A stretch of 54,524 bases of DNA from Anaerolineae bacterium. GTDB taxonomy: Bacteria; Chloroflexota; Anaerolineae; UBA4142; SHND01. Below the pieces are notes generated by a model that was not told where the DNA came from, searched no databases, and saw nothing but the letters and a program-made list of their open reading frames with translations. The stretch spans positions 1-54,524 of the forward strand of contig JADZCJ010000143.1 in NCBI GenBank assembly GCA_020851635.1. The letters run 5' to 3'. The position numbers and the translations under genes were made by a program. Positions 21,625 to 31,500 of the stretch are shown piece by piece (within the stretch, counting starts at the first letter, position 1; every line of letters begins with the position of its first letter).

Positions 21625-21653
21625 TTGACCGCGAACGCGGATGGGACTATAAT
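21625..21653 (+). promoter_or_regulatory. Consensus-like promoter of the B12 uptake operon
   Basis: TTGACC (21625-21630), exactly 17 nt, TATAAT (21648-21653). Transcription would begin near 21660, about 17 nt before the cobalamin riboswitch. It is the best housekeeping-sigma promoter in the window. Between 21417 and 21624 I see nothing else. Confidence 0.8.
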
Positions 21654-21676
21654 CTTTTCACAATTGAATAGTATCC

Positions 21677-21806
21677 AGTGAGGCATCCCGAACGCCCGGA
21701 TGCGAGGGAATCAGATGAAAGCCGGTGAGAGACCGGCGCTGTGCCGCAACTGTAAGTGTTTATCCGCCTATGGCGGGAAAATACAAGCCAGGAAATCTGC
21801 CTCACT
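21677..21806 (+). ncRNA. Cobalamin riboswitch aptamer
   Basis: The closing stem AGTGAGGC / GCCTCACT bounds the element. Inside are GAGGGAATCAGATGAAAGCC, a GCCGGTGAGAGACCGGC-type hairpin, the B12 box core GCCGCAACTG (21743-21752) and the 3' segment AGCCAGGAAATCTGCC, all in the order known for B12-box riboswitches. Adenosyl- or hydroxocobalamin binding should repress the downstream operon, whose genes fit B12 capture and uptake. The predicted expression platform includes the terminator at 21982-22014. Confidence 0.9.
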
Positions 21807-21937
21807 TGCGCACCAACATGAGATTGCGTAGCAGCGTCTCGAGTTTTACAGCTCGCGTGATGTCATTTGCCCCGTCAATTTCATCATGTTGTTGCGCTAA
21901 ATCTCTACAGACCCTTCTCGCGACAAGGAGGTTGAGT

Positions 21938-21955
21938 ATGCTTGTATTCTTGTGA
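21938..21955 (+). CDS. Possible 5-codon leader ORF (MLVFL)
   Basis: A very strong Shine-Dalgarno (AAGGAGGTT, 21925-21933) precedes ATG CTT GTA TTC TTG TGA by 4-6 nt. It lies between the riboswitch aptamer and the terminator, about 86 nt before the first structural gene. The ribosome site is stronger than that of the structural gene. It could be a translated leader that affects folding of the expression platform, or simply part of the switch (an SD-like pairing segment). Too short for statistical support. Confidence 0.4.
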   Translation: MLVFL

Positions 21956-21981
21956 CACAGCTTGCCTGCTGCGTTTTCTCA

Positions 21982-22014
21982 ACACCTGACCGGATTGGTC
22001 GGGTGTTTTTTTTT
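21982..22014 (+). terminator. Terminator of the B12 riboswitch
   Basis: Stem ACACCTGACC / GGTCGGGTGT (one G-U pair) with loop GGATT-like, followed by at least eight T. It stands 20 nt before the ribosome site of the first gene, so it can stop transcription before the operon. It is the likely expression platform of the cobalamin riboswitch. Confidence 0.85.
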
Positions 22015-22040
22015 CTCATATTCCAAAGGAGCATTTGAAC

Positions 22041-23462
22041 ATGCAATCTCGCAATCCGGCAGTACACGCGTCAGACGAGGGAACAGAACCGCGTTCGTCA
22101 GGTGGAGGAACGAAACGGCGTTCGTTCCCGACGGGGTTTGGAACGCGCGCGGTCCTCACTTTTGTCGCGTTCGTCGCGCTGGTCATAACTGCCGCCACAT
22201 TCACATTTTCCGCCCCGGTTTCGGCGGCGCCCGACGCCGGACGTCCGCGCTATGCCGATGTGGTCATACAGTTTGGCGATCGCGAAACTGTTGTGCGCAG
22301 CATCGTTTTTAACAAGAAAAAGATCACCGGTCTGCAGGCGCTCGAATTGACCGGATTGGACGTTGTGCGGATTGACACGCAATACGGTCCCGCGATTTGC
22401 AGCATCGAAGGGGTCGGGATGCCCGCCGACAATTGTTTTGGCGACCCTCAGGGACGGTATTGGGGCTATAATTATTGGGATGGCTCGGCGTGGCAGGGAT
22501 ATATGATCGGCGCGGGCGAGTCCAAGGTCAAGAACGGCGCGGTGGAAGGTTGGCGTTACGGGCAATTTGGAGATTCGATGTATCCCGCCGGACCCGTGCT
22601 TGCCGCAAACAAGGCGCTAAAATGGCTGCAAGAGCAGCAGTCCAACACGACGGGTGGTTACGCGGGCGCGCCTTCGAGCGTGGACACGGCGCTGGCAATT
22701 TCCGCCAACGATATTGCCGCCAAAAACTGGCAACGCAATGCGAATGCGCCGTCGCTAGCCACGTTTTTGAAACAGAACGCGCGCAAATACTCTAAATTGG
22801 GCGCCTCTTCCGCCGGAAAACTCGCGCTGGCGTTGACCAGCGCCAAAGTGTGCTTTCAGAAAAAGACGCGCCTGCCCGATGCGTATTACGAGAGCAGCAC
22901 CGGCAAGTATCACGAAGGCGCGGGACATCAGGCGTTTGCGATTTTGGGGACCGCCGCGCTCGGCGCCGTGCCCGCGGACGCGGTCACGTTTCTCAAAAGT
23001 ATTCAACAACCGAACGGTGGTTGGGAATGGCAGCCGACGTGGGGGACCGACACGAATACAACCGCGCTGGCTCTGCAGGCCTTGGTTGCGACAGGTGAAC
23101 CTCTGAACTCGACCGCCATCACGAATGCGCTGGCGTATCTGGACACGGCCCAAAACGCCGATGGCGGTTTTCCATTCGACCCCGATTCATCCATCACAAC
23201 CGAGAGCGATGGCAATTCGACCGCATGGGTGATTCAGGCGTTGACTGCGACGGGACAGGACCCCTTTGGTCCGGACTGGACGCAGAACGCCACATCGGTC
23301 GCGTTCCTCGAATCTTTGCAACTGCCCAACGGGAGTTTTGAATGGATGGCGGGGTCGGGGACGGCGAATTTGCTTGCCACGCAGCAGGCGATCATCGCGC
23401 TGATGGGCAGATCGCTGATTCCGTCGGGGGTGACCGCGCACAAAGAGTGTCCCAAGCCATAG
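22041..23462 (+). CDS. Intrinsic-factor-like B12-binding surface protein (DUF4430 + alpha/alpha toroid)
   Basis: A 473-residue exported protein. A basic N-terminal tail is followed by one hydrophobic segment (about residues 35-60). A DUF4430/transcobalamin C-terminal-like beta domain comes next (about 70-175; VVRSIVFNKKKITGLQALELTG, YWGYNYWDGSAWQGYMIGAG). Then comes an alpha6/alpha6 toroid with prenyltransferase-type repeats (QQPNGGWEWQP, QNADGGFPFD, QLPNGSFEW). Human intrinsic factor and transcobalamin combine the same two domain types in the opposite order. With the riboswitch upstream and ECF transporter downstream, a role in capturing cobalamin is strongly suggested. The ATG at 22041 is favoured over a TTG at 22035 by the AAAGGAG spacing. 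Confidence 0.85.
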   Translation: MQSRNPAVHASDEGTEPRSSGGGTKRRSFPTGFGTRAVLTFVAFVALVITAATFTFSAPVSAAPDAGRPRYADVVIQFGDRETVVRSIVFNKKKITGLQALELTGLDVVRIDTQYGPAICSIEGVGMPADNCFGDPQGRYWGYNYWDGSAWQGYMIGAGESKVKNGAVEGWRYGQFGDSMYPAGPVLAANKALKWLQEQQSNTTGGYAGAPSSVDTALAISANDIAAKNWQRNANAPSLATFLKQNARKYSKLGASSAGKLALALTSAKVCFQKKTRLPDAYYESSTGKYHEGAGHQAFAILGTAALGAVPADAVTFLKSIQQPNGGWEWQPTWGTDTNTTALALQALVATGEPLNSTAITNALAYLDTAQNADGGFPFDPDSSITTESDGNSTAWVIQALTATGQDPFGPDWTQNATSVAFLESLQLPNGSFEWMAGSGTANLLATQQAIIALMGRSLIPSGVTAHKECPKP

Positions 23463-23507
23463 AGGTCGCTCGAGGCGTTACGTTCTCGCCGCACTCGACA
23501 AGGTAAA

Positions 23508-23565
23508 GAGACCCCGAGAATTTTTGTCCGTTTGCGGGGGTCATGTCGGAAATTCTCGGGGTCTC
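23508..23565. repeat. Long perfect hairpin inside the B12 operon
   Basis: A 16-bp perfect stem GAGACCCCGAGAATTT / AAATTCTCGGGGTCTC with a 26-nt loop, located between the two DUF4430 genes. There is no T-run. It may be a processing site that sets different mRNA levels for the secreted binder and the transporter genes, or an interspersed palindrome. Confidence 0.55.
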
Positions 23566-23587
23566 GCAATAATAGTAATAGTCATCT

Positions 23588-24706
23588 ATGCAAGATCGCG
23601 TCCATCAACTGTTGAATACTCTCGACCCCACTCGTCATCGCATTGTGTTTCAATGCGTGATCGGCGGTTTGGGTCTGTTGCTTTTGCTCGCGCTGTTGAG
23701 CTTTATGCTGCTGGCTCGTCAGGCGTTGTCGGCGCAGACGGTCAATCGCGCCGCGGTCGTGGTGGTCTTTGGGAATGGCAATTCGCAGAAGCATTGTGTC
23801 GAGTTTAGCGAAGACGAATTATCGGGGTTGGACTTGTTGGAGCGGGCCGGATTCAACCCGAGCGTGGATGCGAGCAACGCGATGGGCGTGGCGATCTGCA
23901 AGATCGGTCGCAACGGCTGCAACTATCCGAATCAAAATTGTTTTTGCGAATGTCAGGGCGCGGAATGTGTCTACTGGTCCTACTGGATCGGAGATGCGGG
24001 AGGGAACTGGAAATATTCGGGCATGGGAACGTCGAACCGTCTTGTGCGAAACGGCGATATTGACGGTTGGGTCTGGGGCGTGGGCACCACGTCGGGCGCT
24101 TCACCCCCCCCTGCGATCACGTTCGAGCAGGTGTGCGGGGCGCAGACGGGCAACGCGACGCCTACCGAGACCGCGACGACAAGCCCGACGGAAACGCCCA
24201 CTGTGACCACTGCGCCGCCTACCGCGACCACTGCGCCGCCCACCGCGACCCTGACGGCGACGAGCGTTTCGCCGACGTTCACCCTGACGCCGTCGCCAAC
24301 ACTGACGTGGACCGAAACGCGGCTGCCCACCATTACGGGAGAGGCGACCGCGACGCGGTTTGTGCCGACACCACGGATCGCACAAAACAGCGCGCCGCCT
24401 CCCACTCTGCCGCCGGAACCCACGCCCGAGTGGGTCCCGACACCGTTTGAAGAGCAAAACTTGCCCTTGCCGACAGGCACACGTCTCCCGACTCGCGTCG
24501 CGATCGGACAGAGCAATTCCGTCAATGCGACGCGCGCCGCCGAAGAATTGGAGCTGGCGGAACAAGCGCAAACCCAAGCGGAAGAAAAGGCGCAGCTGCG
24601 GCACACCCTTTCGGGGATTGTGCTGGTGGGTGGGTTGCTGGTGGGCGGCGCGGGATTGGTTGTGCTGTTGGCGGGGACGGGCTGGTATATGATGCGGCGG
24701 CGCTAA
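23588..24706 (+). CDS. Membrane-anchored DUF4430 protein with Thr/Pro stalk (predicted B12 receptor)
   Basis: A 372-residue surface protein. It has an N-terminal hydrophobic signal (about residues 24-48), one DUF4430/transcobalamin-like domain (about 52-165, with SGLDLLERAGF, a Cys-rich insertion CNYPNQNCFCECQGAEC, and YWSYWIG), then a Thr/Pro stalk (about 185-300), a short Glu/Ala/Gln helix, and a C-terminal membrane helix followed by RRR. The layout suggests a tethered receptor facing outside that could hand cobalamin to the ECF transporter. The Cys-rich loop may hold disulfides. It is the second gene of the riboswitch operon and lies 9 nt before the T component. Confidence 0.85.
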   Translation: MQDRVHQLLNTLDPTRHRIVFQCVIGGLGLLLLLALLSFMLLARQALSAQTVNRAAVVVVFGNGNSQKHCVEFSEDELSGLDLLERAGFNPSVDASNAMGVAICKIGRNGCNYPNQNCFCECQGAECVYWSYWIGDAGGNWKYSGMGTSNRLVRNGDIDGWVWGVGTTSGASPPPAITFEQVCGAQTGNATPTETATTSPTETPTVTTAPPTATTAPPTATLTATSVSPTFTLTPSPTLTWTETRLPTITGEATATRFVPTPRIAQNSAPPPTLPPEPTPEWVPTPFEEQNLPLPTGTRLPTRVAIGQSNSVNATRAAEELELAEQAQTQAEEKAQLRHTLSGIVLVGGLLVGGAGLVVLLAGTGWYMMRRR

Positions 24707-24715
24707 AAGCTCTCT

Positions 24716-25768
24716 ATGTTTCACACCACTGCCTGGCTCTTGTGGCTGGCTGCCGCGCTGGTCCCGTTTACGCTGACCAAAAATCCGTTCTATCTTTTCA
24801 TCGCGCTCGGCGCGGTGGCGGTTGATTATTATGTGTTGTGTCGCCACAGCGCGCTCGGCAAATCGTGGGGCGCGCTGTTGTGGCTGGGAACAACGGTCGC
24901 GCTGTTTAGCATTTTGTATAATGTCTTGTTTGTGAACGTCGGCGCGACAAGGTTGTTGACCCTGCCCGCGTATCGCTGGACCTTTAACGAAGGGGTGGTG
25001 CAGTTGGGTGGGGCGATCACGCTCGAAAGTCTGGTCTATGGGCTAGTGAGCGCGTTGAGTTTGATCGGATTGCTCGTCGCGTTTGCGACCTTTAACGCGG
25101 TCGCCGACCATTATCAACTGCTGCGGAGCGCGCCGCGTTTTTTGTACCAGTCCGCGATCGTGCTCTCGATTGCGGTCACGTTTGTGCCGCAGATGGTTTT
25201 GGCACAGGCGGAAATTCGCGAGGCGCAGACGCTGCGCGGGCATCGCTTTCGCGCGGTGCGCGATTTGATTCCGTTGTTTGTGACGCTGTTGGCGGAGGGG
25301 TTGGAACACAGCATCACGTTGGCGGAATCCATGAGCGCGCGCGGGTTTGGCGGTTCGGGCGCGCCGTCGAAAACGCGCACGCCGCTGCTGCAAATCGCGA
25401 TTGCGGTCGGGCTCTTTATGGTGTTGACGGGTGTGGTCGCGCTCAAGTATGTGTCGGAAAAAATGGTCGGGGGGGGGGCGGTCGTGGTGGGCGCGGCGCT
25501 GCTCGTGAGCGCGTTGTGGCGGGTCGGGCGGGATGTGCATGTGAGCCGTTACCGGCGGATTCGCTGGGCGCGGCGGGATGTCCTGCTCGCGCTGGCGGCG
25601 GGAGTGATTCTCGCGGTGTGGGGAGCGGGTTGGTGGAGCGATTCGCTCCACTTTATTTTTTATCCCTACCCGCGCTTGAAAATGCCGCCGTTCGAGCCGT
25701 TGTATGGCGCGGCGCTGGTTTTGTTGGCGGCGCCCGCGTTGTTGAGCAAAATGTTTCCTCATGATTGA
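24716..25768 (+). CDS. ecfT: ECF transporter T component (EcfT/CbiQ-like)
   Basis: A 350-residue membrane protein with several hydrophobic helices. It carries two coupling-helix motifs of the EcfT/CbiQ family, seen here as EIREAQTLRGHRF and LAESMSARGFGGSG, which contact the ATPases. It is longer than typical EcfT (about 265 residues) because of extra C-terminal helices (about 260-350). It scaffolds the ATP-binding and S subunits of an energy-coupling-factor transporter. Its stop overlaps the ATPase start by 8 nt. Placement behind a cobalamin riboswitch points to B12 as substrate. Confidence 0.9.
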   Translation: MFHTTAWLLWLAAALVPFTLTKNPFYLFIALGAVAVDYYVLCRHSALGKSWGALLWLGTTVALFSILYNVLFVNVGATRLLTLPAYRWTFNEGVVQLGGAITLESLVYGLVSALSLIGLLVAFATFNAVADHYQLLRSAPRFLYQSAIVLSIAVTFVPQMVLAQAEIREAQTLRGHRFRAVRDLIPLFVTLLAEGLEHSITLAESMSARGFGGSGAPSKTRTPLLQIAIAVGLFMVLTGVVALKYVSEKMVGGGAVVVGAALLVSALWRVGRDVHVSRYRRIRWARRDVLLALAAGVILAVWGAGWWSDSLHFIFYPYPRLKMPPFEPLYGAALVLLAAPALLSKMFPHD

Positions 25769-27440
25769 ACTGCACAACGTCACCTACAGTTATCCAAAAC
25801 AGAATATGCCGACGCTGCGTGACATTTCACTGCAGATTTCGCCGGGGACGTTCCTGCTGGTGGTGGGTCCGTCGGGCGCGGGCAAGAGCACGCTTTTGCG
25901 GACGATCAACGGGCTGGTGCCGCATTTTTACGGCGGCGCGCTGCAGGGGCGCGTGCGGGTGGAGGAGCGCGACCCGGTCGAGTTTGGACCGCGCGGGATG
26001 AGCGATCTCGTGGGGCTGGTGTTTCAGAACCCCGAAGCGCAGTTTGTGACGCAGCTGGTCGAGGACGAGTTGGCGTTTGCGATGGAGAACCTGAATTTTT
26101 CGCAAGCGTTGATGCGGCGGCGCGTCGAAGAGGCGCTCGACCAGCTCTCGATTGCCGATTTGCGCGGGCGCAAGGTCGAGACGCTTTCGGGCGGACAGAA
26201 ACAACTGGTCGCGATTGCGAGCGTGCTCACGTTACAGCCCTCGATCCTGGTGCTCGACGAACCGACTTCGCAGCTCGACCCGCAAGCGGCGGAAGAGGTG
26301 CTGACGATTCTGCAAAAATTGAATATGGACCTGGGTCTGACGATCGTGTTGTCCGAACACCGGCTCGAACGCGTCGCCCAGTATGCGGACCGGATTTGTT
26401 ATCTGCCGCGCCGCGGCGCGAGTCCGCTGCTCGGCGCGCCGCGCGAGGTTCTGGCGCAGGTGGACCTTGTGCCGCCGCTCGTGGAACTGGGGCGCAAACT
26501 GGACTGGCAGCCAATGCCTTTGACGATCAAAGAGAGCCGCCCCTTTGCGGAAAATTTGAAACGAAAATGGAATGGGTTTCGCGCGCCCGCGCCGAGACCT
26601 CCGGCGCCGGGCGGGACGGGCACGACTAAAGGCGTGACTACGAGTGGGGCTGGTGTGATTGGCACGACTAAAGTCGTGACTACGGGGCTGGGGTTTCGGT
26701 ATGGGGAGCGCGAGGTGCTGAAAAGCATTTCGTTCGAGTTGGGCGCGGGGGAACTGGTCGCGCTGATGGGGCGGAATGGGAGCGGGAAAAGCACGCTGCT
26801 CAAAAATATCGTGGGGCTGCTCAAGCCGCAGCGGGGGGGGGTGCGGGTGAACGGGCAGGACCCGGCGGCGATTCCGTTGGAGCAAATTGCGCGGCATGTC
26901 GGGTTTGTGCCGCAGAACCCCGGACGGCTCTTGTTTAACGAGACGGTGCAGGGGGAACTGGAATTTACCTGTCGCGCGCACAATCTCGGGACCGAAAAAA
27001 TTGCGGGGCTGCTGGAACAGTTGGGGTTGAGCGAGCTGCGCGAGGCGTATCCGCGCGATCTGAGCACGGGCGAACGACAGCGCGTCGCGCTGGCGTCCAT
27101 TTTGATCGCCGAACCGGGCGCGCTGCTCCTGGACGAGCCGACGCGCGGGCTGGATTATGTGAGCAAGGAAAAACTGCTGGCGATTCTCAAACGTCTGCGC
27201 GCACAGGGCGTGACGATCCTGATGGCGAGTCATGATGTGGAACTGGTGGCGCAGTGTGCGACGCGAATTTTGCTTTTGGGCAACGGCGACATTGTGGCGG
27301 ATGGGACGACGCGGCATGTGATGAACGACTCGCTGGTGTTTGCGCCGCAGGTGAACAAGGCGCTGCGCGACGAGCGTTTTTTGACGGTGGCGGATGTGCT
27401 GGCGCTCGAGGAGGCGCACCAACATGCGGCGCAGAGCTAG
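25761..27440 (+). CDS. Fused ECF transporter ATPase (two ABC domains)
   Basis: A 559-residue protein with two complete ABC ATPase domains, as in fused EcfA-EcfA' proteins. Domain 1 has GPSGAGKST, LVFQNPEAQFVT, LSGGQKQLVAIA and ILVLDEPTSQLDP. Domain 2 (from about residue 310) has GRNGSGKST, FVPQNPGRLLF, LSTGERQRVALA and ALLLDEPTRGLD. The QNP Q-loop context is typical of ECF ATPases. The linker between domains (about residues 286-307) is encoded by two copies of a palindromic repeat. It energises uptake together with EcfT and the S component; its start overlaps ecfT and its end overlaps the S gene. Confidence 0.94.
   Translation: MIELHNVTYSYPKQNMPTLRDISLQISPGTFLLVVGPSGAGKSTLLRTINGLVPHFYGGALQGRVRVEERDPVEFGPRGMSDLVGLVFQNPEAQFVTQLVEDELAFAMENLNFSQALMRRRVEEALDQLSIADLRGRKVETLSGGQKQLVAIASVLTLQPSILVLDEPTSQLDPQAAEEVLTILQKLNMDLGLTIVLSEHRLERVAQYADRICYLPRRGASPLLGAPREVLAQVDLVPPLVELGRKLDWQPMPLTIKESRPFAENLKRKWNGFRAPAPRPPAPGGTGTTKGVTTSGAGVIGTTKVVTTGLGFRYGEREVLKSISFELGAGELVALMGRNGSGKSTLLKNIVGLLKPQRGGVRVNGQDPAAIPLEQIARHVGFVPQNPGRLLFNETVQGELEFTCRAHNLGTEKIAGLLEQLGLSELREAYPRDLSTGERQRVALASILIAEPGALLLDEPTRGLDYVSKEKLLAILKRLRAQGVTILMASHDVELVAQCATRILLLGNGDIVADGTTRHVMNDSLVFAPQVNKALRDERFLTVADVLALEEAHQHAAQS
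26617..26682 (+). repeat. Palindromic repeat inserted in frame in the ATPase linker
   Basis: Two copies, 42 bp apart, of a 24-nt unit read as GGCACGACTAAAG then G/TCGTGACTACG (26617-26640 and 26659-26682). The unit is a near-palindrome (CACGACT / AGTCGTG) of the kind found between genes. Here it lies in the coding frame and encodes a Thr/Gly/Val-rich linker between the two ABC domains, with no effect on either domain's motifs. Confidence 0.7.
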
Positions 27441-28269
27441 GTCTGGCTTGGTCTCGACGATCATTTTGTTTCTCGCGAGCGCGCTGGGGGCGTGGGCGTT
27501 TCTCTCGCCGTTTCTCGCGACGGATGTGGAGCAGGTCGCGATGATGGGCATGGCGCATGCGAACGATGCGCCGGTCTTTTTTGTGCTGCTGCTCGGGTTG
27601 TGTCTCTTGCTGCTCGTCACAAATCTCGAAACGCGGCAGATGGATGCGCAGCTGGTGGCGGTGCTGGGCGTGCTGGTGGGCATCAATGCGACCTTGCGTT
27701 TGATCCCGGGCATCGCGGGGTTCAGCGCGGTCTTTTTTTTGCCGATCCTGTGCGGGTTTGTGTTTGGCGCGGAATTTGGATTTCTGGTGGGGTCGCTCTC
27801 GCTGCTGGTGTCGGCGCTGATCACGGGGGGGGTGGGTCCGTGGCTGCCGTTCCAGATGTTTGCGTGCGGGTGGAACGGGATGGTGGCGGGGTGGATTCCG
27901 CAGTCGCCGGAGAATCCGCGCCGTGAAGTGGCGCTGCTCGCGGCGTGGGGTCTGGTCAGCGGCTTGCTCTTTGGCTTTGTGATGAATCTCTGGTTCTGGC
28001 CCTTTTTCGCCGACCCGAGCGGGACGGCGTTTGCGTGGGCGCCGGGTTCGAGTTTTATGCGCACGCTGACGGTGTATGGCTTGTTTTATGCGGCGACGTC
28101 GTTGTGGTGGGATGCGGCGCGGTCGGCGGGAAATGTTTTATTGATTTTGTTGGTGGGGATTCCCGTGCTGCGTTTGCTGCGGCGTTTTTATGCGCGGTTT
28201 CATTTTACGGTGGTGGATGCGCCTGCCGAGGTGGGAGGTATGGCGCCTGCCAAGGGGCTTGACAGCTGA
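27424..28269 (+). CDS. ECF transporter S component (predicted cobalamin-specific, CbrT-like)
   Basis: A 281-residue membrane protein with six or more hydrophobic helices. It has small-residue and aromatic motifs typical of S components, such as GFVFGAEFGFLVGSLSLLVSALITGGVGPWLPFQMF. S components bind the vitamin and topple in the membrane. The family match is loose, but the place after EcfT and the fused ATPase, and the upstream cobalamin riboswitch, suggest B12 (CbrT-like). The start at 27424 overlaps the ATPase gene by 17 nt; an upstream ATG at 27394 would add ten basic residues and is less likely. Confidence 0.85.
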   Translation: MRRRARSGLVSTIILFLASALGAWAFLSPFLATDVEQVAMMGMAHANDAPVFFVLLLGLCLLLLVTNLETRQMDAQLVAVLGVLVGINATLRLIPGIAGFSAVFFLPILCGFVFGAEFGFLVGSLSLLVSALITGGVGPWLPFQMFACGWNGMVAGWIPQSPENPRREVALLAAWGLVSGLLFGFVMNLWFWPFFADPSGTAFAWAPGSSFMRTLTVYGLFYAATSLWWDAARSAGNVLLILLVGIPVLRLLRRFYARFHFTVVDAPAEVGGMAPAKGLDS

Positions 28270-28469: not shown

Positions 28470-28524
28470 CAAAACCTTCGAGGTGTCTCGCGACGCATAG
28501 CGTCGCACACACCTCGAAGGTTTG
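28470..28524. terminator. Nested perfect hairpin upstream of CHAT gene
   Basis: Outer arms AAACCTTCGAGGTGT / CACCTCGAAGGTTT pair almost perfectly and enclose a second hairpin GCGACGC-ATA-GCGTCGC. There is no long T-run. It separates the B12 operon from the CHAT gene. The remainder of 28378-28579 holds only the ribosome site AAAGGAAC. Confidence 0.6.
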
Positions 28525-28579: not shown

Positions 28580-31500
28580 ATGGCCATTTCATTTGCCGAA
28601 AATGCTTCTTTGACCTGTCCCCAATGTCAGACCCCCTTTGATGCCGAAATCTGGTTGATCGTGGACGCGGGCGAGCGCCCCGACCTCGCCGCGCGCTGTC
28701 ATGACGGTTCCATCCACAGCGTCACCTGTCCGAACAAGCACAGCGGTTTGCTCGGCGCGCCGCTCCTCTATCACGACCGCGCCAAGCAGCAGTTATTTCT
28801 CGCGTATCCGCAGGGGCTGGCTGAGGAGGAGCTGTGGCAAGCGGGTGCGCGCCTCGTTCAACAGCTGCGCGGTCAACTACTCATTCTCCCCGGCAGCAGT
28901 TATCTCGATACCCCGCAAGCCATTCCCCAAGAGCTGTTGCCCGCCGCGATAGACGACAAACTGGACGAGGCGATGGCGGAGCTGCAAGCGCGAATGCAGC
29001 AAGCGAAAGCACTGCGCCAAAACCCCGCCGCGTCCGCCGCGCTGCGTGTTTTGCAAGCACACCAAACACTCCTTGAAACCATTCAACAGTGGATAAATCT
29101 GGACGCCTGGGACACGTCCAAGCAATTTCTGGAAACGCATCCCGAACTGCTGACAGAGGATGCCGAACTCGTCCTTGCCGCCATGCTCGACCTTGCGCGA
29201 GCACAGGACGACGTGAACATGCAAGAAGATGTCAGTGTCCATCGCGAGATCGTACGCGTCGCGCGGGGGAATAGTATCGACGCGGCGTATAAAAAATATC
29301 TTGAACGCGGCGCGGCGAATGAACGCGTCTCTGACGCCCGCGCGGAACTCGAGGCGCGCCTCGCCGAACTCGACATCCATTCGCAAGCGGACCTCGAACG
29401 CGCGCTCCCCGACCATCCCGAACTGCGCGAGTTGATGGAGCGCGTCACGGTAGAAGAGAACCCGCTCCTGCAATCGATCAATCAATTGATGCGCACGCGC
29501 TCACCCCGGGAGGTGTTGACCCTCGCACGCGCGTACCCCGCGCTACTGAGCGATGAGGGAATAAATGCCATCCGCGAAATCATTGCCAACGCTCGTTCTC
29601 GCGGTGAAGAGGATATGGCGAATCATTTGCAAGAACGCTTCGAGATCCTCGAACGGATTATCGCAAGCGGCGCGCGGGTGGACGTTCTTGCACAACAAGC
29701 GGTACTCGAACAATCGCTCGATGATGAAACACGCGCCGCCATCGAGGACCTGCGCGCATTGGGGATTTCGAACGAGCAAGAGCTGCAAGCTGCGCTTGAA
29801 AAACGGCCCGACCTCCGCGAAAAATTGGAACGCACAATACAATCAGCCGTCAGCGGTCAGGCGTCTGCCGTCGGCAGTGGCGACATTCCCGACGACGTGC
29901 GTTCCATCCTGCAAGAAATGTCACAGCTGACGCGTCTCTCCGACATGCCGCGCAAAATCGAGCTGTGCCGTGCCGCGCTGGAACGTGTGACGCGTGAACA
30001 GAATCCAAACTTGTGGGCAGGATTAAATGGTGAACTCGCCAACGCGTTTAATCAGACGCCACAGGGCAGCCGCGCGGATAATCTCGAACAATCCATCTAT
30101 CATTATGAGCAGACTCAACAAGTTTATACGCACGAAACGAATCCCCCAATGTGGGCAGCTGTAGAGAACAACCTGGCGACCGCGTACAGAAACCGCATTC
30201 GGGGGGAGCGCGCCGACAATCTGGAAGAAGCGATTCGGCACTATGAACTGGCGTTAGAGGTTTATACGCGTGCGGCGTTCCCCGAACAATGGGCGACCAC
30301 GCAGAACAACCTGGCGAACGCGTACTCGGACCGCATTCGGGGGGAGCGCGCCGACAATCTGGAAGAAGCGATTCGGCACTATGAACTGGCGTTAGAGGTG
30401 AGGACGCGTGAACAACTGCCGCAGGATACAGTCCAGACCGCGCACAATCTCGGCGATCTCTATTTCGAGCAGCAGAATTGGCAGGCGGCGCACCGCGCGT
30501 TTGGGATTGCCCGTGATGCCGCCGAAGACCTTTTTCGCGTCAGTTTCACACCCAAAGGTCAGCAATCTGAAATGGAACAGTTGGCGCACCTCTATGACCG
30601 CGACCTCGCCGTCTGCGCGCAGTTATCCGCGGCGGAGGCAAGCGTTGTGCCGGATATCGCGAAAGAAGCGTTAAGCGAGAGCGAAGCGGCGCGTTCCCGT
30701 GCGTTCTTAAAGCAGCTGGGTTTGGGAGATTTTGCACAGCCTGCATCCATTCCTACGCCCCTTGTGACGCAGGAACGGGAAATCATCGCGCAGCTGCGTG
30801 AAATCGAAAACAATCTTGCAAACACGGACACGCGCAGCGACCGCATGTCGGAAATGGAACACGCGCTGACGGAGCGTCGCAAGCAACTGTTGAATGATCG
30901 GGAGCGGATATGGGGTGAAATGCTCGCCGCCTCACCCGACGCCGCCGATTATGTTTCCCTCCGTCGCGCAGAGACGCCCAAGTGGGATGCCCTGTCCGCC
31001 CTCGCCGCGCGTTTGGGCAAGGAGGCGGCGCTCGTCGAGTTTCATTTGTTGGACGACCAGACGCTCGCATTCGTCTGGCGCGCGGGTTGGGATGCGCCCA
31101 AAATGCTTTCCCTGCCCCTCACGCCCGAACGCTTATTCCAGCGCTACCTGCGTTCTTATGAACGCGAAGTGCTGAACATTTATCGCCGTTCCCAGGCGCG
31201 CGCCGCAGAACGCGAACTGTATCACGACTGGCTGGAACTCGGCGAGGAACTGCTCGCGCCGCTCGAACCGCTGTTGGGCGACGCGTCGCTCGTCTATTTC
31301 ATCCCGCACCAGTATTTGCACCTGCTGCCACTCCACGCGCTCACGGTGGACGGCGAACCGTTCATCGCGCGGCGCGCGGTCGCGTATGCGCCCTCGGCGG
31401 CGGTGTTGAAACGAGTGTTAGACCCGAAGGGTTTTGGAAACCCTTCGGATCTTGGGGGCGCGCTCGTAATGGGCTATACGGAATATCCAAAACAGCGCGA

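Follow-up and report, generated by a model that had tools for sequence, protein, structure and literature searches.

An energy-coupling factor operon of Chloroflexota combines a cobalamin riboswitch with two exported proteins resembling vertebrate B12 carriers

What does an energy-coupling factor (ECF) importer of a Chloroflexota bacterium take up, and why is it encoded together with two exported proteins that recall the vertebrate carriers of vitamin B12? The question is raised by a stretch of 54,524 nucleotides (contig JADZCJ010000143.1; here, the window) from the 5.8-Mb metagenome-assembled genome (MAG; completeness 97.7%) of an Anaerolineae bacterium. Its positions 21625–28269 hold, all on the + strand and in this order, a promoter, a cobalamin riboswitch, a terminator, two genes here called A and B, and the genes for EcfT, EcfAA′ and an S component. 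A reading made from the letters alone (the sequence-only reading) had proposed that these parts form a system for capturing cobalamin and relaying it to the transporter. Those elements of the proposal that could be tested computationally—a B12 riboswitch, a CbrT-like S component, the beta fold of B, the toroid of A, and the conservation of the gene set with its riboswitch in two phyla—came out in its favor, and we consider it very likely that the operon serves cobalamin (corrinoid) import, in which the corrinoid is captured outside the cell and then handed over to an ECF importer of the CbrT type.

The leader of the operon was recovered much as it had first been read. A sigma-70-type promoter (TTGACC-N17-TATAAT; 21625–21653) matches the consensus at 11 of 12 positions, and 11 nt further downstream begins a cobalamin riboswitch aptamer (21664–21818; Rfam RF00174, 53 bits against a gathering cut-off of 31.5, E 2e-10), the only RF00174 match in the whole source genome. 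The riboswitch's expression platform, 5′ of gene A, is an intrinsic terminator with a stem of 12 pairs (21981–22007) followed by a T-run, which forms a separate hairpin when the leader RNA is folded; no clean antiterminator emerged from the same folding of the riboswitch leader. Because the terminator sits between the aptamer and gene A, its position suggests transcriptional OFF control by B12.

Protein B (372 aa; 23588–24706) has a hydrophobic N-terminal segment, a cysteine-rich beta domain (23735–24088), a stalk in which Thr and Pro make up 44% of residues (24143–24592) and a C-terminal transmembrane helix followed by RRR (24617–24673), which bears out the earlier suggestion that B is tethered by a Thr/Pro stalk. 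Of 67 homologues checked, 53 likewise have a transmembrane helix after the beta domain. The beta domain was modeled from 51 aligned sequences with high confidence (predicted local distance difference test, pLDDT, 93.9), and structure prediction, named beforehand as a check on the transcobalamin fold, gave a clear answer for B: a fold search returned transcobalamin, intrinsic factor and haptocorrin at Z 10.5–11.8 and the bacterial structure 3u7z at Z 11.9, these being the only matches above Z 8, with the next fold at Z 6.0. The label DUF4430, which had been attached to both A and B along with export and a transcobalamin-like fold, is owed to the fold rather than to Pfam: export and fold stood, while no member passed Pfam PF14478 (DUF4430), for which the source genome, 61 genomes surrounding one of Chloroflexus and 19 B homologues were searched. 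A sequence-profile search of the PDB with the beta domain retrieved no B12 carrier either.

Gene A (22041–23462; 473 aa) starts at an ATG preceded by the ribosome-binding site AAAGGAG (22025–22031), correcting an initial assignment to TTG 22035. Its product carries a signal peptide (22041–22226; hydrophobic stretch at aa 38–56) with a predicted cleavage site between SA and AP that was judged by eye, and the window protein has no C-terminal transmembrane anchor. In the model of mature A (41 aligned sequences; pLDDT 93.5; predicted template modeling score, pTM, 0.89), an N-terminal beta domain (b1; about residues 12–118 of the model; 22245–22565) is followed by a C-terminal alpha/alpha toroid (22572–23435; PF13243, 7e-11). 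In intrinsic-factor-type proteins the toroid precedes the beta domain, and the reversed order claimed for A is borne out by the predicted structure, as is the toroid itself, the fold of which matches human intrinsic factor (2pmv) at Z 19.8 over 238 residues. A fold search with the whole of A aligns the toroid alone, and the transcobalamin-like nature of the A beta domain was judged via its homology to that of B (34% identity, E 1e-15). Window A gave no match to Pfam PF01122 at E 0.1; 5 of 17 homologues matched this family at E 1 or better, the best at 2.7e-6.

As the sequence-only reading had it, a complete ECF transporter is encoded together downstream of B. It consists of a CbiQ-like transmembrane coupling protein, EcfT (24716–25768; PF02361, 25.8 bits), a fused EcfA–EcfA′ double ATPase (25761–27440; TIGR04520, 375 bits; two ABC_tran domains) and an S component (27424–28269), whose open reading frame opens at 27394 and whose start is probably the ATG at 27424. 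When a profile of 23 operon S proteins was run against the PDB, the best match was 6fnp_A, ECF-CbrT of Lactobacillus delbrueckii (E 3.8e-9), with FolT-type folate S components next (E 0.005); no CbiM-type match was obtained for the S component. CbrT binds and transports cobalamin and cobinamide, and its gene adjoins nrdJ in L. delbrueckii (PMC5997447). A solo relative of the window's S gene (L133; loci of the comparison carry L numbers) likewise adjoins the gene for the B12-dependent ribonucleotide reductase, nrdJ. As judged from the profile, the S component would transport cobalamin. The operon S proteins are extended at the N-terminus by about 85 residues, which include hydrophobic stretches and lie outside the coverage of CbrT; in the window, A or B may dock onto this extension (27424–27680).

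Homologous loci were gathered with the S alignment, the B alignment being too diverse for a contig scan. Relatives of the S component are present in 102 of 400 Chloroflexota genomes and at no fewer than 589 places in GTDB species genomes. The best 80 of these loci fall mainly into Chloroflexota and Actinomycetota, with Streptomyces, Kribbella and Actinophytocola among the Actinomycetota. Operon comparison, another check foreseen at the outset, found A, B, T, AA and S genes together in most operons, in varying order. Of the 58 loci that could be scored, at least 48 have a riboswitch directly 5′ of A/B; two of the ten loci scored negative (L116 and L145) were missed by the grouping script only, and where whole genomes were scanned, contigs were assigned to loci from coordinates alone. 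Among directly scanned loci, a riboswitch was found in 17 of 19 with A/B. Of 15 S loci without A/B, only one has a riboswitch. Moreover, at L072, which has the S component closest to that of the window, and at L112, A/B and the ECF genes lie on different strands and A/B have a riboswitch of their own, so that A/B look B12-regulated independently of the ECF genes. Two Actinomycetota loci contain extra toroid genes (L132, 9994–11145; L147, 15761–16918), each directly 3′ of another cobalamin riboswitch.

The domains of A and B are distributed over the proteins in more than one way. Many operons have an A that is a toroid alone, with a separate small beta protein, b1, encoded between A and B (L036/L098, L073, L091, L092), and at L078 two beta domains share one protein. 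The beta domain is fused ahead of the toroid in window A and at L093, L097, L104 and L066, and at L055 and L084 one or more toroids are followed by a fused beta domain, the order seen in intrinsic factor. Since fusions recur in both domain orders, they suggest that toroid and beta domain work as one unit.

The host appears to need what the operon would bring in. Several proteins with B12-binding domains are encoded in its genome, including two corrinoid proteins and one with a methylmalonyl-CoA mutase domain, and searches of this 97.7% complete genome found no CbiC, no CobS and no FecCD/BtuC permease; weak, partial GATase_3 matches were taken to be other glutamine amidotransferases rather than corrin enzymes. 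With B12 in use and both the tested markers of corrin-ring synthesis and salvage and BtuC absent, an importer of this kind would therefore be needed. Given that the genome holds a single riboswitch and that we found in it no further known importer of B12, the operon is likely the route by which B12 enters the cell.

Put together, these observations can be accommodated in the following scheme. When B12 is plentiful, the riboswitch would favor the terminator and the operon would be shut; when it is scarce, A and B would be made, A being secreted and B staying attached, through its stalk, to the outside of the membrane. The beta domain of both proteins corresponds to the one with which transcobalamin and intrinsic factor cover one side of cobalamin, and the toroid of A may cover the other side, so that A and B would bind cobalamin, possibly in a joint pocket of toroid and beta domain. 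A, with or without B, would thus trap scarce corrinoid outside the membrane and B would keep it at the cell surface; from there it may pass, presumably in this order and direction, to the CbrT-like S component, with EcfT and EcfAA′ driving import across the membrane.

Several observations weigh against this scheme. One concerns the toroid of A, the fold of which is nearer to squalene-hopene and other terpene cyclases (Z 25) than to intrinsic factor (Z 19.8) and the sequence of which is also closer to terpene cyclases. Because the toroid is generic by sequence and closer to these enzymes, its kinship with intrinsic factor is, as far as the model goes, one of fold only. Could A then be a terpene-cyclase-like enzyme that is merely co-regulated with a B12 importer? 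Squalene-hopene cyclases are indeed the best matches of the toroid in both sequence and fold, but the catalytic acid motif of type II cyclases, DxDD, is missing from window A and from 62 of 64 toroids at these loci, and 59 toroids carry a D-x-[DN]-[STA]-T-A-like sequence instead; on the missing motif, the assignment of A as a terpene cyclase was rejected. Export places A away from prenyl substrates, which disfavors prenyl chemistry, and the recurrent fusion to a transcobalamin-type domain, in either order, likewise runs counter to a cyclase. We regard this explanation as very improbable; A is probably not an enzyme.

Also weighing against the proposed scheme, three loci (L032, L033, L076) have T, AA and S genes with no A/B nearby, and solo S genes exist without A/B (L037, L039, L045, L048, L118, L133 and others), with none of T, AA, A and B nearby and no riboswitch where scanned. 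A/B are therefore not essential for every S component of the family. Solo genes cluster in the tree of S components without forming one clade, so that A/B partners were probably lost or gained more than once. More distant S-T-AA operons of small Chloroflexota genomes (L068, L070) have no A/B in the stretch examined, and L068, L070, L069 and L071 make up a separate branch of the tree. In the host genome, a search for adenosyltransferases of the PduO type, the only type searched, found none despite the methylmalonyl-CoA mutase domain, and since the MAG is only 97.7% complete, none of the gene absences is certain.

The nature of the cargo leaves room for two further alternatives. What the operon imports might be corrinoid precursors or other cobamides (cobinamide, cobamides without dimethylbenzimidazole) and not cobalamin itself; A and B would then select the ligand. 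Cobalamin-class riboswitches govern uptake genes as well as salvage genes, which counts for this option, as does the uptake of cobinamide by the characterized CbrT (PMC5997447). However, as neither CobS nor CbiC was found, a precursor could hardly be completed to the cofactor in this host, and we rate the precursor explanation as unlikely. Far less probable still is a transporter for cobalt or another vitamin, such as a folate-like one, with A and B binding that substrate: the CbiQ-like EcfT and the weak similarity of the S component to FolT-type S components point that way, but the S component lacks a CbiM-type match, its profile prefers CbrT with a lead of about six orders of magnitude, the beta domain has the fold of B12 carriers, and the cobalamin riboswitch recurs across two phyla.

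If cobalamin import is accepted as the function, the operon stands between systems that are already known separately, namely ECF B12 importers, the bacterial transcobalamin fold (3u7z) and B12 riboswitches. It shares with ECF-CbrT (6fnp) the ECF architecture, an S component for which CbrT is the nearest solved relative by profile and a solo relative beside nrdJ; it differs in the N-terminal extension of S, in that the operon itself encodes an EcfT and a fused EcfAA′, and in two extracellular partners, of which no counterpart has been reported for CbrT. With human intrinsic factor, transcobalamin and haptocorrin it has in common the alpha/alpha toroid and the transcobalamin-type beta domain, secretion and the B12 context; unlike them, window A has the beta domain first, a second, anchored beta-domain protein is encoded in the operon, the toroid is nearer to terpene cyclases, and sequence identity is low (10–20%). 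The vertebrate carriers, moreover, enter cells by endocytosis and not via a transporter. RUMGNA_00854 of Ruminococcus gnavus (3u7z), a DUF4430-type protein, has the same beta-domain fold, whereas the window family is missed by the Pfam model and adds a cysteine-rich stretch, a stalk and a transmembrane anchor. BtuBFCD also imports B12, but with other protein families throughout, and its FecCD-type permease was not found in the window genome. Finally, A and B weakly match the NCBIfam families SCO2321 and SCO2322 of Streptomyces, which have no functional name; at 66 of 300 bits and 36 of 85 bits, the scores fall well short of the curated cut-offs, and relatives of these families occur within the Actinomycetota operons.

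In the usual picture, no extracellular binder takes part when ECF S components capture vitamins; they do so directly. The loci described here genetically tie an ECF B12 importer to surface proteins with intrinsic factor/transcobalamin folds, in many genomes of two phyla. We found no account in the literature consulted of intrinsic-factor-type binders coupled to an ECF importer, although this group of ECF transporters may already have been predicted computationally. On balance, we lean slightly toward the wider view that monoderm bacteria of both phyla share an intrinsic-factor-like system of secreted and anchored proteins for B12 capture, in which toroid and beta domain, whether on one chain or two, close over cobalamin outside the cell and bring it to an ECF S component, as a counterpart or ancestor of the vertebrate carriers. 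If so, relatives of the named but functionally unassigned families SCO2321 and SCO2322 would gain functions, the supply of B12 in bacteria without BtuCD would be accounted for, and bacterial relatives would be at hand for tracing the origin of vertebrate B12 carriers.

Two further features of the locus lie between genes. A hairpin with a 19-bp stem separates A from B (23508–23565, + strand; −34 kcal/mol, z −5.6); it is present as a single copy in the genome, no T-run follows the stem, and it could set the level of secreted A apart from that of the membrane genes. Beyond the operon, a perfect inverted repeat with AAACCTTCGAGGTGT arms occupies 28472–28523, between the S gene and a large gene at 28580.
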